Assembly (NCBI GenBank): GCA_902586125.1
Contig: CACIGI010000009.1
Coordinates: 1-53,098, forward strand
Direction of reading: 5' to 3'
DNA: 53,098 nucleotides
From: an uncultured Pelagibacteraceae bacterium
GTDB lineage: Bacteria > Pseudomonadota > Alphaproteobacteria > Pelagibacterales > Pelagibacteraceae
Under the pieces are notes generated by a model. It worked only from the letters and a program-made list of their open reading frames with translations. It was not told where the DNA came from and ran no database searches. Each line of letters opens with the position of its first letter. Position 1 is the first letter of the stretch. Position numbers and translations under genes: made by a program. Positions 24,958-29,470 of the stretch are shown piece by piece.

Positions 24958-25248
24958 TTGGCTATTGTAAAATCAGAGCTTATAAAAGAACTAAAAAAAT
25001 CCTACCCTAATTTTCTAACCCGCGATTTAAACAAAGTGGTTGAGATAATTCTTAAAGAAATCAAGGAGACCCTTAATAGGGGTGAGAGTGTTGAACTAAG
25101 AGGTTTTGGTACTTGGAGGACAAAAATTCAAAAAGCCTCGATTAGACGCAATCCGCGGACATCTCAAAAAATTAACGTTCCAAAAAAAAGAAATATCAAA
25201 TGGAAAATGTCAAAAGACCTGTTTAAAAAGTTAAATAATGACTCATAA
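24958..25248 (+). CDS. ihfB: Integration host factor subunit beta
   Basis: DNA-bending protein of the HU/IHF family, used in nucleoid organisation, replication and promoter architecture. The 96-residue product follows the family throughout: KSELIKELKKSYPN, the RGESVELRGFGTW segment in the body, and the DNA-intercalating arm region IRRNPRTSQKINVP. The beta assignment rests on position after rpsA and on the LRGFGTW style. No ATG is available before the conserved region; TTG at 24958 is the only sensible start. No Shine-Dalgarno sequence is visible. It overlaps pyrF by 11 bases. Confidence 0.9.
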   Translation: MAIVKSELIKELKKSYPNFLTRDLNKVVEIILKEIKETLNRGESVELRGFGTWRTKIQKASIRRNPRTSQKINVPKKRNIKWKMSKDLFKKLNNDS

Positions 25249-25909
25249 AATTTTCGTAGCGTGTGATAGCAAAAATATTTCAAAAGTTAAAAAAATTATT
25301 AAAGAAACGCAAAATTCTAAATTAAAAATCGGTTATAAATTTGGACTTGAATTCCTTAATTCTAAGAATGGAAGATTGTTTTTATCTAAATTAAAGAATA
25401 AAATAATCTTTGCAGATTTAAAACTTCATGACATACCCAATACTTGTGCTTCAGCAATCAAAGCTATAAATGATTTGAACATTAATTATTTAACAATACA
25501 TATCAGTTCAGGTTTAGAGGCTCTTAAAGCTGCAAAAAGAGTATCAAATAAAATTCGTTTAGCTGGCGTATCTATTCTCACTTCGTTAGATAATAAATCC
25601 TTAAAAGAAATTGGATTTAATAAAGATGTAAAAAAATTAGTTTTACTACAGGCAAAATTAGCAACCAAGGCAAAACTAGATGCCATTGTATGCAGCGCTC
25701 AAGAGGTAAAAATAGTAAGAAAAGTATTTAAAAAAGAAATTATCACCCCTGGAATTCGATTTACCTCAAAAACAAATGATCAAAAAAGAGTTTTAACTCC
25801 CAAAGAAGCCTATAAAAATGGAAGTAATTGGCTTGTTATAGGGCGACCTTTAACAAAAGGAAACATCAAAAAAAACTTTCAAATATTAATTGACCACTTA
25901 AATCAATGA
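25238..25909 (+). CDS. pyrF: Orotidine 5'-phosphate decarboxylase
   Basis: Final step of UMP synthesis. The 223-residue TIM-barrel protein carries the catalytic ADLKLHDIPNTCA (Asp-Lys-His-Asp set), GLEALKAA, AIVCSAQE, TPGIRF, and the phosphate-binding WLVIGRPLTK near the C-terminus. Overlaps ihfB by 11 bases and joins trpF through ATGA, so it is tightly packed within the same transcript. Confidence 0.94.
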   Translation: MTHKIFVACDSKNISKVKKIIKETQNSKLKIGYKFGLEFLNSKNGRLFLSKLKNKIIFADLKLHDIPNTCASAIKAINDLNINYLTIHISSGLEALKAAKRVSNKIRLAGVSILTSLDNKSLKEIGFNKDVKKLVLLQAKLATKAKLDAIVCSAQEVKIVRKVFKKEIITPGIRFTSKTNDQKRVLTPKEAYKNGSNWLVIGRPLTKGNIKKNFQILIDHLNQ

Positions 25910-26529
25910 TTAAAGGTTTAAAAATTTGTGGGGTCTCAGATCCTAAGACTTTAAATTTTATTTTAAATCATAATCAAAGGCCTGCTATGATTGGTTTCAT
26001 AACAAATTATGAAAAAAGTAAAAGATTTGTTGAATACGAAAAATTAAAAAGTCTTATTAACTTTAATAAAAAAGATGTAAGCTTTGTTTCAGTGCTAGTA
26101 AAACCAAATGATGAGATCTTGGAAAAAATAAAAGATTTAGATTTTGATTATTATCAACTTTATGATGTAAGTCCTGAAAGAACGAAAGAAATAAAGTCAA
26201 AATTTTGTAAAAGAATTATTACGGCCCTTACCATTTCCAGTAAAGCTGATGTGATAAAATATAAAGATTATTCAGAAATTTCAGATATAATTTTATTCGA
26301 CTCAATAGGTTACCATAAGTCTGAAAGTTTTGATCATAGTTTACTAGATGACTTGCCCCGTGAACTAAATAAAATGATTGCAGGAAATATCCAAATTGAT
26401 GATATACATAAATTTAAAAATAAGGATTTTATAATTGATCTCAGTGGAGCGCTAGAAAACTCCCATGGGAAAAAAGATATTAATAAAATTGATAAATTGT
26501 TAAATTTACAAAAAAAATATGAAACTTAA
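25906..26529 (+). CDS. trpF: Phosphoribosylanthranilate isomerase, divergent
   Basis: Expected to isomerise phosphoribosylanthranilate in tryptophan synthesis. The 207-residue protein keeps the family N-terminus LKICG with the catalytic cysteine at residue 8, the Arg of the SPR motif (as SKR), the acid in ILFDS, and a late IIDLSGALE followed by GKKDINKI. Other hallmarks are changed: the phosphate-loop GGTG after the LLDS strand is absent (it reads DSIGYHKSESFDH), VQLHG is YQLYD, and LAGGL is IAGNI. The position pyrF-trpF-trpB-trpA-accD-folC is the normal alphaproteobacterial locus, so orthology is likely but activity is uncertain. Confidence 0.78.
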   Translation: MIKGLKICGVSDPKTLNFILNHNQRPAMIGFITNYEKSKRFVEYEKLKSLINFNKKDVSFVSVLVKPNDEILEKIKDLDFDYYQLYDVSPERTKEIKSKFCKRIITALTISSKADVIKYKDYSEISDIILFDSIGYHKSESFDHSLLDDLPRELNKMIAGNIQIDDIHKFKNKDFIIDLSGALENSHGKKDINKIDKLLNLQKKYET

Positions 26530-27754
26530 AAAAAAAATTCCAGTCATTGACCAAGGAAATTCGCATGGATTTTGGGGGGGTAAATTTGGTGGAAACTTTG
26601 TGCCTGAAACTTTAAAAAAACCAATCGAAGATTTAGAAATTCTATTTAATAAACTTAAAAAAGATAAAAAGTTTATCGCTGAGAGAGATAAATATTTTCA
26701 AAATTGGGTTGGGGTACCTACAAGATTTATAAAACTTAAAAATATCACAAATTATATCGGTGGTGCTCAAATTTGGTCTAAAGTTGTATCAGATGCCAAT
26801 GGAGGAGCTCACAAAATTTATAATGCAACTGTACATTGTTTACTTGCAAAACGATCTGGAAAAAAAATTATATGTGGTGATACCGGTGCTGGATATGCGG
26901 GCAAAATGTTAAGTATGGCTGCCAAAAAATTTGGATTGAAATGCAAAATATTTATGGGTGCAAAGGATATTGCCAGACAACAGCCAAACGTAAAAGCAAT
27001 AAAAAGAAATGGAGCAGAAGTGATACCCGTCTACTCTGGAAGTCAAACTCTTGTAGATGCTGTCTCAGAATGCATGCGATTTTGGGTTGCTAATTGTGAT
27101 ACGACAGCAATGTGTGTTGGTAGCACAGTAGGACCAGCGGTTTTTGTTCGAATATGTGGGTGGAGTACTAGTCAAATTTCAAGAGAGTTAAAAGTTCAAC
27201 TAATAAATGAATTTGGATCAATCCCAAGAAAACTTAAATTGTACAATTGTGTAGGAGGTGGAAGTTCAAGTTTTGGTTTTTGGAATGAATTTATGGATTA
27301 TGACAAAAAACAAGTTGAGTTTATAGGAGTAGAGGCTGGAGGACCTAAAAAAAGTAAAAAACATGCAGCACCTTTAACTTATGGTTCAAAGATTGGTATA
27401 CTTCATGGTGCAGCTCAGTACGTAAATCAAAACTCAGATGGACAAATAGAAGAGACAGAGTCGATTTCAGCAGGACTTGATTATCCAGGAATTTCACCAC
27501 TTCATTGCTTTTTAAAAGATACCAAGAGAGCTAGGTATACTGCTGCAAGTGATGAAGAAGCTTTGAGGGCATATAAACTTATAACTAAATTTGAGAAATT
27601 AAGACCTTCCTTAGAACCAAGCCATGCTTTTTTTGTTGCTCTTAAAGAAGCGAAAAAACTTAGCAAAGATACTGTAGTAGTAATAAATAGTTGTGGCGAT
27701 GCATATAAAGACAAAGAAATTTTAGAAAAAAGATTAGGTAAAAAATATGTTTAA
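26519..27754 (+). CDS. trpB: Tryptophan synthase beta subunit, highly divergent active site
   Basis: Fold-type II PLP enzyme that normally joins indole and serine. The 411-residue protein is collinear with TrpB: GNFVPETL near 25, GGAHKIYN with the PLP lysine at Lys99, DTGAGYAG at 121-128, RQQPNV, GAEVIPVYSGSQTL, a GGGSSS phosphate cup, and SISAGLDYPG. Measured from Lys99 (Salmonella Lys87), key positions differ. Glu109 is Asp121; Gln114-His115 of the carboxylate loop are Tyr-Ala; Lys167 at the alpha interface is Val179; Asn236 is Ser; Ser377 in SGRGD is Cys in SCGDAYKD; and REDLNHTG before the PLP lysine is VVSDANGG. Overlaps trpF by 11 and trpA by 8 bases. Confidence 0.83.
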   Translation: MKLKKKIPVIDQGNSHGFWGGKFGGNFVPETLKKPIEDLEILFNKLKKDKKFIAERDKYFQNWVGVPTRFIKLKNITNYIGGAQIWSKVVSDANGGAHKIYNATVHCLLAKRSGKKIICGDTGAGYAGKMLSMAAKKFGLKCKIFMGAKDIARQQPNVKAIKRNGAEVIPVYSGSQTLVDAVSECMRFWVANCDTTAMCVGSTVGPAVFVRICGWSTSQISRELKVQLINEFGSIPRKLKLYNCVGGGSSSFGFWNEFMDYDKKQVEFIGVEAGGPKKSKKHAAPLTYGSKIGILHGAAQYVNQNSDGQIEETESISAGLDYPGISPLHCFLKDTKRARYTAASDEEALRAYKLITKFEKLRPSLEPSHAFFVALKEAKKLSKDTVVVINSCGDAYKDKEILEKRLGKKYV

Positions 27755-28547
27755 TCCAATTAGTGCTGCATTTAAAAAAGCAAGAGTAGAAAATAGACCA
27801 GCTTTATTAACCTACACTGTTGCTGGTGATGGCTCAAAAAAGCAATCCTTGGATATCTTAAAATCTATATCTAAAAATGCAGATATTTTAGAAGTAGGTG
27901 TGCCACATAATACTCCTGTTGCAGATGGAAGCCAAATTCAAACTAGCGCATATAGGGCAATTAAAAGAGGAATTAAAATTAATGATATATTTAAAATTGT
28001 TAAAGATTTTAAAAAATTCGATAAAAACAAGCCTGTTATTTTAATGGGTTACTATAATATGATCTTTCAATATGGAGATAATAATTTTTTAAACAAATGT
28101 AAAACTTCAGGAGTAAATGGATTAATCGTTGTAGATTTACCTTGGCCAGAAAATAAAGATTTCGCTAAAAAATGTAAAAGCAAATCAATTTATTTTATTC
28201 AACTTTTATCACCTACAACAACAGGTAAAAGGCTAAAAAAAATTATAAAAGACTCACATCCGATGAATTATTTCATTTCAATGTTAAGCACTACAGGTGG
28301 TAAGTTAAAAGTATCACCTCAAGAGATACTTAAAAACTATCATAGAATTAAAAATATTAATCCAAAAAAAGAGATTGTGATTGGTTTTGGGATTACAGAT
28401 AAAACAATTGGAAAACTTAAATCTGCTGATGGATTAGTAGTAGGAAGTGCTATTTGTAAAGAAATTACGAGAAGTTTAAATAGTAGACAAAATCCTGTCA
28501 TAAATGTAGGTAGGTTAGTAAGAAAATTAAAAAATAAAATAAAATGA
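27747..28547 (+). CDS. trpA: Tryptophan synthase alpha subunit, divergent
   Basis: Normally releases indole from indole-3-glycerol phosphate. The 266-residue TIM barrel keeps catalytic Glu49 (LEVGVP) and Asp60 (VADG), LMGYYN, GLIVVDLP, the phosphate-binding GFGITDK and GLVVGSAI. The loop between the catalytic acids, usually PFSDPLADGP, reads PHNTPVADGS, so the interface Asp56 is Thr. The loop SRSGVTG is MLSTTGG, keeping Thr183 and Gly184 but not the preceding residues. These changes mirror those in the TrpB partner. The stop overlaps accD by 4 bases (ATGA). Confidence 0.85.
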   Translation: MFNPISAAFKKARVENRPALLTYTVAGDGSKKQSLDILKSISKNADILEVGVPHNTPVADGSQIQTSAYRAIKRGIKINDIFKIVKDFKKFDKNKPVILMGYYNMIFQYGDNNFLNKCKTSGVNGLIVVDLPWPENKDFAKKCKSKSIYFIQLLSPTTTGKRLKKIIKDSHPMNYFISMLSTTGGKLKVSPQEILKNYHRIKNINPKKEIVIGFGITDKTIGKLKSADGLVVGSAICKEITRSLNSRQNPVINVGRLVRKLKNKIK

Positions 28548-29470
28548 ATTGGATTACTAAAATAATCAAAGCAGGAGAAAAAATTAAATCTGCCATTCAC
28601 AAAAGAGCATCCAAAGAAGATATTGCAAATAGTGATTGGACTTCTTGTTGCAAGGGTCCAATATTAAAAAAAAATTTAGAGGAAAATCTTTGGGTTTGCC
28701 CTGATTGTAATAAACACCACAGAATTAAACCAAAACAACGATTTGATATTTTATTTGGAAAAAATAATTATGAGATATTTCAAACACCCATTCCAAAAGA
28801 TGATCCTTTAAACTGGACAGATTCAAAATCCTATAAAGATAGATTAAAATCTGCTAGAAAAAAAACTGGTATGGATTGTGGCATGATGGTTGTAAGCGGT
28901 ACAATAAATGATATTAAAATTACTGCAGTCGCATCTGATTTTGATTTCTTAGGTGCATCAATGGCAGCTGCAGAAGGAGAAGCTTTCTTATACGGTATCC
29001 AGCATGCAATTGAAAATAAAACTCCTTTTTTATGTGTAAGCGCAGGAGGTGGAATGAGAATGATGGAAAGTTTAATTTCTTTATCTCAAATGACAAGAAC
29101 CACACTAGCAATAAATGAATTAAAAAATAATAATCTTCCATATCTTGTTTGTATAACAGACCCAACCGCTGGGGGTATTACTGCTTCTTATGCAATGTTA
29201 GGGGATATTCATATAGCTGAACCAGGAGCGCTAATTGCTTTCGCTGGAGCAAGAGTAATTCAAGGAACTGTTAAAGAGGAATTACCAGATGGTTTTCAAA
29301 AGAGTGAATACGTTGAAAAGACAGGATTCGTTGATTTAATTGTTGAAAGAAAAGATCTAGCTGAAAAAATTGGAACTTTATTGTCAATATTGTTAAAGAA
29401 AAATTCTGATATAAGCACTGAACAAGATGAAACTACAGAAAATACTCAGTCGCTTTCTAAAATTGCATAA
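28544..29470 (+). CDS. accD: Acetyl-CoA carboxylase carboxyltransferase beta subunit
   Basis: Partner of AccA. The 308-residue product has an N-terminal zinc-ribbon region, then the crotonase-like carboxyltransferase domain (MDCGMMVVSGTINDIKI, DFDFLGASMAAAEGE, SAGGGMRMMES, TDPTAGGITASYAMLGDI, AFAGARVIQ, LPDGFQKSEYVEK). The ribbon usually has CxxC then CPxC. Here the first pair is an adjacent Cys-Cys (WTSCCKGP), while the second, VCPDC, is normal, so zinc binding may be altered. It overlaps trpA by 4 bases and folC by 44 bases, the standard alphaproteobacterial order. Confidence 0.94.
   Translation: MNWITKIIKAGEKIKSAIHKRASKEDIANSDWTSCCKGPILKKNLEENLWVCPDCNKHHRIKPKQRFDILFGKNNYEIFQTPIPKDDPLNWTDSKSYKDRLKSARKKTGMDCGMMVVSGTINDIKITAVASDFDFLGASMAAAEGEAFLYGIQHAIENKTPFLCVSAGGGMRMMESLISLSQMTRTTLAINELKNNNLPYLVCITDPTAGGITASYAMLGDIHIAEPGALIAFAGARVIQGTVKEELPDGFQKSEYVEKTGFVDLIVERKDLAEKIGTLLSILLKKNSDISTEQDETTENTQSLSKIA

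Follow-up and report, generated by a model that had tools for sequence, protein, structure and literature searches.

The trpBA locus of a 53,098-nucleotide stretch of DNA from an uncultured Pelagibacteraceae bacterium (contig CACIGI010000009.1, the window) raises the question of whether a TrpB-TrpA pair changed at catalytic, substrate and interface residues is still a tryptophan synthase. This enzyme is a textbook allosteric complex, in which the contacts of Glu109, Lys167-αAsp56 and Arg141-Asp305 are regarded as near-fixed. Comparison of the pair with its relatives makes it highly probable that trpBA encodes the tryptophan synthase of the cell in a strongly remodelled form; it represents one of several deep types, and the two genes appear to have been replaced together in place.

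Both genes lie on the forward strand, trpB at 26519..27754 (411 residues) and trpA at 27747..28547 (266 residues, overlapping trpB by 8 bases). The products carry the Pfam domains PALP (TrpB) and Trp_syntA (TrpA), their top NCBIfam matches are TrpB and TrpA models, and TrpA scores 203.7 bits against TIGR00262 (cut-off 102.35). The AlphaFold model of TrpB (mean predicted local distance difference test (pLDDT) 95.0) found its best PDB match in TrpB 6cut_A (Z 65.5, root-mean-square deviation 1.0, 384 residues), and a TrpB of the type IV described below was also modelled with the TrpB fold (pLDDT 92.8); a fold common to models and solved structures is no proof of function. Residues were numbered by alignment to E. 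coli MG1655 TrpB (Lys87, Glu109, Lys167, Asp305, Ser377) and TrpA (Glu49, Asp56, Asp60), and this alignment bore out every residue change named in the preliminary description of the locus.

We compared E. coli TrpB and 151 distinct TrpB sequences, the latter left from 179 in fetched loci once identical cores had been removed, and sorted them into types, labels coined here from residues 109-115 and the tree. The window belongs to type I (67 sequences); the canonical set (n = 34) comprises E. coli and 33 alphaproteobacterial sequences, of which three belong to the SAR11 sister family. Catalytic Glu109, present in 34/34 canonical sequences, is replaced by Asp121 (26879..26881; Asp in 67/67 type I), Gln114-His115 by Tyr126-Ala127 (26894..26899; Tyr in 67/67, Ala in 65/67), and Asn236 of the phosphate loop by Ser250 (27266..27268; Ser in 67/67). 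Lys167 of the inter-subunit salt bridge is Val179 (27053..27055; Val in 67/67), and its partner TrpA Asp56 is Thr56 (27912..27914; of 64 type I sequences, 43 have Thr and 21 have Ala). Before the pyridoxal phosphate (PLP) lysine, REDLxHxG has become VVSDANGG (26783..26806; R77V, L80D, H82N and neighbours). The preliminary description called such changes unusual, which holds for Glu109, Gln114-His115, Asn236, Lys167 and VVSDANGG and fails for Ser377Cys: Cys392 (27692..27694) is ordinary in alphaproteobacteria (Cys in 25/34 canonical sequences), and this position was dropped as a special change.

Other catalytic features are kept. The PLP lysine Lys99 (Lys87; 26813..26815) and the GGGS loop are present across all types, K99, G246, G248 and S249 being invariant and G247 at least 90% conserved among 42 aligned sequences. 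Asp321 (Asp305; 27479..27481) is retained together with Arg153 (Arg141), and this closing pair is Arg-Asp in 67/67 type I sequences. TrpA retains both catalytic acids, Glu49 and Asp60 (27891..27926), as well as T183 and S235, and an adjacent trpA with both acids accompanies 64/64 type I trpB genes, the other three of the 67 having no TrpA in the stretch read.

The departure of TrpB extends well beyond the listed residues. Of 129 columns invariant in the canonical set, a number that is likely an overcount because the 33 alphaproteobacterial members were drawn as the best-scoring TIGR00263 matches and are biased to consensus, 51 are changed in the window, and 13 of these carry a single replacement fixed in 67/67 type I sequences (Q94H, E109D, Q114Y, K167V, N171S, Y186M, T190S, A192V, V201C, E220F, N236S, G310S and A348S). 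Pairwise comparison of the window trpB with 29 relatives gave ratios of nonsynonymous to synonymous substitution (dN/dS) of 0.037-0.063 at dS of 0.59-1.98, the upper values being near saturation. By these comparisons the window TrpB belongs to a class that spans SAR11 and is under strong purifying selection, and its residue changes are real and old, beyond chance or decay. Relaxed selection on a scarcely used enzyme would fit the far divergence of TrpB from canonical sequences, but it is contradicted by the low dN/dS, the intact frame and the 13 fixed replacements; we regard it as extremely improbable, and the earlier exclusion of sequencing error or decay is upheld.

The same distance appears in profile scores. 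Across 289 genomes of the class, TIGR00263 gave no match in 53, weak matches only in 8 (E 7e-8 to 8e-4), distant matches in 3 (about 1e-44, family f55), and 1e-111 to 1e-118 in 4 of the window's family, while the remaining 221 reached 4e-174 or better. The curated cut-off was passed by 8 of 30 compared genomes, including G026 at 403.5 bits, and by 77 of 247 genomes of the order. In a hand-picked set of 24 genomes with a full-length trpB, the cut-off thus misses the sole TrpB in 16.

Is the remodelled pair still the tryptophan synthase? Profile searches of the window genome (G000, 977 kb, 82% complete), along lines suggested in the preliminary description, revealed one full-length TrpB and trpC, trpD and trpE consecutively on another contig. 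The sole extra TrpB match, 28 bits over profile positions 40-163, was rejected as a second trpB and is probably another PLP enzyme. Two further genomes, G026 (1,308,759 bases) and G035 (1,456,888 bases), possess a TrpB of type I that shows the listed residues, and TrpA Thr56, the sole deviation in TrpB being Glu for Asp in VVS(D/E)ANGG, and no second full-length TrpB match was found in either with TIGR00263. By their lengths, we take these genomes to be those of strains HTCC1062 and HTCC7211. Both strains grow in artificial seawater supplemented with pyruvate, glycine, methionine and vitamins, no tryptophan being added, according to the passages on their medium in PMC8437039, and the part of Kagan et al. 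(2008, PMC2395257) that treats HTCC1062 gives it a single trpB in the gene order of the window. Because strains growing without tryptophan carry type I residues and no other full-length TrpB, type I TrpBA is very likely a working tryptophan synthase; the proposal of a fast-evolved synthase in the preliminary description is likewise supported by the family-wide residues and purifying selection.

That description also offered recruitment of the pair to another β-replacement, in which a different nucleophile would be used and tryptophan synthesis given up. The many changed conserved positions of TrpB speak for it, as does the finding among the fold matches of the tyrosine synthase TmTyrS1 and other engineered TrpBs, which indicates that the scaffold can switch nucleophile. 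It is opposed, as far as the length-based strain names allow, by the tryptophan-independent strains that share the residues and have no other full-length TrpB match, the very observation that the preliminary description had named as speaking against a new function. It is also opposed by the retention of trpE, trpD, trpC and trpA in the window genome, and by a TrpA whose catalytic acids are intact and which varies in concert with TrpB, so that we consider recruitment very unlikely. A milder alternative is that tryptophan synthesis continues with a widened nucleophile range. Glu109 touches the nucleophile, and position 109 is Asp in every type I and II sequence compared; protein multifunctionality has been argued for streamlined SAR11 in passages of PMC8437039. 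Direct signs of a second product are lacking, however, and other TrpBA types at the locus keep Glu109, which leaves such a multifunctional enzyme an unlikely, if less remote, alternative.

If the pair is a tryptophan synthase, TrpA would split indole glycerol phosphate using the kept Glu49 and Asp60, and indole would pass to TrpB, where serine would already be present as aminoacrylate on the PLP of Lys99. Asp121 would stand in for Glu109, and the kept Arg153-Asp321 pair would close the active site. With Val-Thr in place of the Lys167-αAsp56 bridge, signalling between the subunits is predicted to be weaker or different.

We examined the loss of both salt-bridge partners in 144 complexes for which the two subunits were available, that of E. 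coli among them, leaving out five canonical and three type I sequences whose stretch as read had no adjacent TrpA. Lys or Arg at β167 accompanies Asp or Glu at α56 in 62 complexes, Val or Leu accompanies Thr, Ala or Cys in 82, and no mixed case occurs. The bridge is K-D in 29 canonical complexes, K-E in three of type V, and K-E (24) or R-E (6) in type III; the bridge-less combinations are L-T in eight of type IV, V-T (43) or V-A (21) in type I, and V-C in ten of type II, two of which, with Met-Ala at 114-115, stand apart in trees and are labelled I'. A single clade of sequences without Lys167 was not rejected by the approximately unbiased test (p = 0.32), and two independent losses are therefore unsupported. 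The claim that both partners were lost together thus stands as a strong association, and the co-evolution read into it may reflect one ancestral event: the pair does change jointly, possibly in one or two events.

Type I is not alone at this locus. SAR11 genomes carry four further TrpBA types (II-V) and canonical TrpBA at the same chromosomal position, each type altered elsewhere in the enzyme. Type III (n = 30) keeps Glu109 and His115 in 30/30 and Gln114 in 29/30; its β305 is Gln, Thr, Met or Asn, and the catalytic Asp60 of TrpA is Glu in 30/30. Type IV (n = 8) keeps Glu109 and Asp305 and has Lys141, Leu167 and an altered 113-115 loop, and type V (n = 3) has Ala114, Leu141 and Asn305. Counted on the fetched loci, type I occurs in genera g1, g2, g3, g4, g5, g9, g10 and g12 and in g231 of the sister family f143, type II in g1, g2 and g9, I' in g1 and g231, type III in g1 and g4, type IV in g1, g2 and g4, and type V in g232; canonical TrpB occurs in f143, in g234 (two genomes) and g232 (one genome). 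Among named genomes, type III is present at 31 loci, all titled Pelagibacteraceae or Pelagibacter and including strain HTCC9565; most of the other records bear AG or AH names that we take to denote single-cell genomes, and seven titles say metagenome-assembled genome. All 31 loci thus lying within Pelagibacteraceae or Pelagibacter, no donor outside SAR11 was found in this search, which covered type III alone, and one pattern scan of IMG/VR found no viral relative of the window TrpB.

Chimeric assembly, contamination or misalignment could in principle create such types, since many of the genomes are fragmented drafts and G010, in which two type I TrpBs occur, has a listed contamination of 8%. 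Against this, type III recurs in strain HTCC9565, in 30 other named records and in the single-contig genome G078, and the same gene order surrounds every type; we therefore give an artefact a negligible likelihood. The two window-type TrpBs of G010 (genus g10; G010:C38 and G010:C69) are 74% and 78% identical to that of the window. Three genomes of the family encode a second, distant TrpB-like protein scoring 147-152 bits against TIGR00263 (G290:C14:22224-23258, G002:C1:93183-94217 and G006:C10:36022-37059). Apparent loss of trpB in G156, G174, G274, G276, G280 and G044 was read as assembly gaps, because five of the six also lack a match to the window accD and the G280 stretch ends at the 5' end of trpA.

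How the types came to share one position was addressed in 48 regions, namely the window and 47 fetched regions chosen to span the types, so that counts among them are not population frequencies. The order trpB-trpA-accD-folC is present in 48/48. In the careful TrpB tree, types III, IV, V, II and I' each form a single group with starred support and type I does so at 78/58 only; forcing the g1 TrpBs into one clade costs 1343 log-likelihood units and is rejected (p = 2.5e-8). On FastTree gene trees (38-48 rows, 8 or 9 genera, three split trpB genes omitted from the trpB tree), the fewest genus-label changes are 17 for trpB and 14 for trpA, and 9 for aroA, 10 for cmk, 8 for rpsA, 8 for ihfB, 11 for pyrF, 7 for trpF, 10 for accD, 10 for folC and 10 for trxA; type labels need 5 changes on trpB, 5 on trpA and 12-22 on the nine neighbours. 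The upstream trpF (25906..26529, forward strand) follows genus and not TrpBA type, and the downstream accD (28544..29470, forward strand) fits genus better than type.

Pairwise identities within the family point the same way: TrpB and TrpA correlate at r = 0.97 (666 pairs), either of them correlates with the nine neighbouring genes at r = -0.01 to 0.34, and aroA, cmk, rpsA, ihfB and trpF correlate with one another at r = 0.76-0.89. Between genera, TrpBs of the same type are 74% identical and rpsA 39%, whereas within one genus TrpBs of different type are 37% identical and rpsA 69%. Since same-type TrpBs are closer across genera than different-type TrpBs within a genus, trpB and trpA share a history unlike that of the genus or the neighbours, which is best read as joint replacement in place. 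If true, a whole two-subunit enzyme has been exchanged while trpF and accD stayed, which would be a clear example of an enzyme complex transferred whole. A tentative and rather doubtful extension is that SAR11 trpBA is a multi-allele system, in which ancient, functionally equivalent and differently wired synthases are kept circulating and swapped across genera by rare-version advantage; rarity might, for instance, protect from a natural inhibitor or from an enzyme-binding phage factor, and each type may have rebuilt its catalytic and inter-subunit network.

In seven g1 genomes (L113-L119), the match to the window is 44-69% for accD, 28-46% for folC and 51-74% for rpsA, and the accD and folC trees fit genus better than those of trpBA. 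trpF went undetected in ten of the 48 regions, one of them cut by a contig end; the nine uncut ones are L122, L238, L241, L244-L248 and L259, and all five g2 regions read lack it. The gene may have been lost, may lie elsewhere or may have diverged beyond the reach of the search. pyrF (25238-25909 in the window, with homologues in the 48 regions) is out of step with every other gene (r = 0.07-0.38) and is perhaps a second exchanged gene near trpBA, with the genus-following trpF between it and trpB.

Several points weigh against a remodelled synthase exchanged as a unit, beyond the consensus bias of the canonical set, the selected regions and the assumed strain identities mentioned above. The window TrpB, at 370.6 bits, is under the curated TIGR00263 equivalog cut-off of 392.45; at 82% completeness, the window genome could have a second trpB outside its assembly; and the search for trp genes elsewhere in it took in a second trpB, trpC, trpD and trpE. 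Brzovic reportedly found in 1992 that Glu109Asp in the Salmonella enzyme lowers the β reaction about 27-fold. Long branches, flagged by the tree program itself, leave the deep order of the types unsure. The correlations of accD, folC, trxA and pyrF with the other neighbours are no more than moderate or weak, which makes trpBA the extreme and not the sole misfit, and the behaviour of pyrF makes it harder to argue for a selection peculiar to tryptophan synthase. Finally, exchange as such is not new, since published work already describes SAR11 as high in both recombination and allelic variation (PMC2217521, in passages in which 'trpB' and 'tryptophan' do not occur).

A further oddity of type I is found in genus g4, where trpB is split in 14 of 169 genomes (L222-L235) by one extra base between GDT and GAG of the catalytic motif. 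The split site, GTG GGG GAT ACC followed by A (13 genes) or C (one gene) and GGC, is identical in 14/14, giving the invariant string GTGGGGGATACC[A/C]GGC, and its coding is absent from all 70 type I genomes with an unsplit trpB that were compared (seven of them g4). Two of the 14 genes encode an identical C-half protein; outside the split site synonymous positions vary (mean proportion of synonymous differences, pS, 0.49 and 0.57 for the two halves), and purifying selection acts on each half (median dN/dS 0.067 and 0.051). A G-run directly precedes the shift, and the next codon is AGG or CGG, rarer than AGA, somewhat resembling the prfB site. These features suggest that a programmed +1 frameshift is likely; re-initiation is an alternative because 13 of the 14 genes have a second-frame TTG 15 bases upstream. 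Split and unsplit trpB are interleaved in the g4 tree with weak support. A slightly wider form of the pattern matched two of 397 genomes drawn from the order (G163 and G169), and no case outside g4 was found among these 397, a draw that omitted the other 12 of the 14. Literature searches pairing programmed frameshifting with SAR11 or with trpB returned only unrelated results. In the complete genome G040 (L126 and G040:C1:930231-930997), which by its length we take to be IMCC9063, two overlapping frames together make up trpC and the trpA match covers only 157 of 266 residues; both genes may be broken or mis-sequenced.

Among known systems, the window pair resembles Salmonella and E. coli TrpB1/TrpA in fold, PLP lysine, GGGS loop, Glu350, Arg141-Asp305, TrpA Glu49, Asp60 and Thr183 and the adjacency of trpB and trpA, and differs from them in Asp109, Tyr114-Ala115, Ser236, Val167, TrpA Thr56 and the 51 of 129 changed columns. 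With TrpB2/trpB_rel it has in common the fold superfamily, but it scores just 89 bits against TIGR01415 (cut-off 518.85, not reached) and 82 bits against NF009057, versus 370.6 against TIGR00263. Xie and co-workers reportedly described in 2004 the displacement of trp operons by lateral transfer; that work has in common with SAR11 that foreign genes replace trp genes, whereas in SAR11 two genes of one enzyme are exchanged in place and the neighbours stay.

The closest precedent is the Sargasso Sea SAR11-like trpB_1 cluster, whose distance from the usual trpB_1 was noted by Kagan et al. (2008, PMC2395257); it is the same cluster as the window type, with the HTCC1062 trpB, the gene order and the single trpB, and the relevant passages of that paper discuss no residues, no multiple types and no trpBA exchange between SAR11 lineages. 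In the literature searched, including those parts of PMC2395257 and PMC2217521, no report of SAR11 TrpB residue changes or of trpBA swapping was found, and searches for E109D or the salt-bridge residue names with tryptophan synthase gave no matches. SAR11 bacteria are among the most abundant organisms on Earth, and their natural complexes, which miss different subsets of contacts, make the needs for catalysis, channelling and signalling directly testable. By their structure titles, laboratory mutants of Salmonella TrpB are substituted at the same positions (K167T, 7lt4 and 6duc; Q114A, 6d0v and 6dzo; Q114N, 2j9y; S377A, 6xe3 and 7jhw), whereas the SAR11 substitutions are natural, combined and paired with a change in TrpA.

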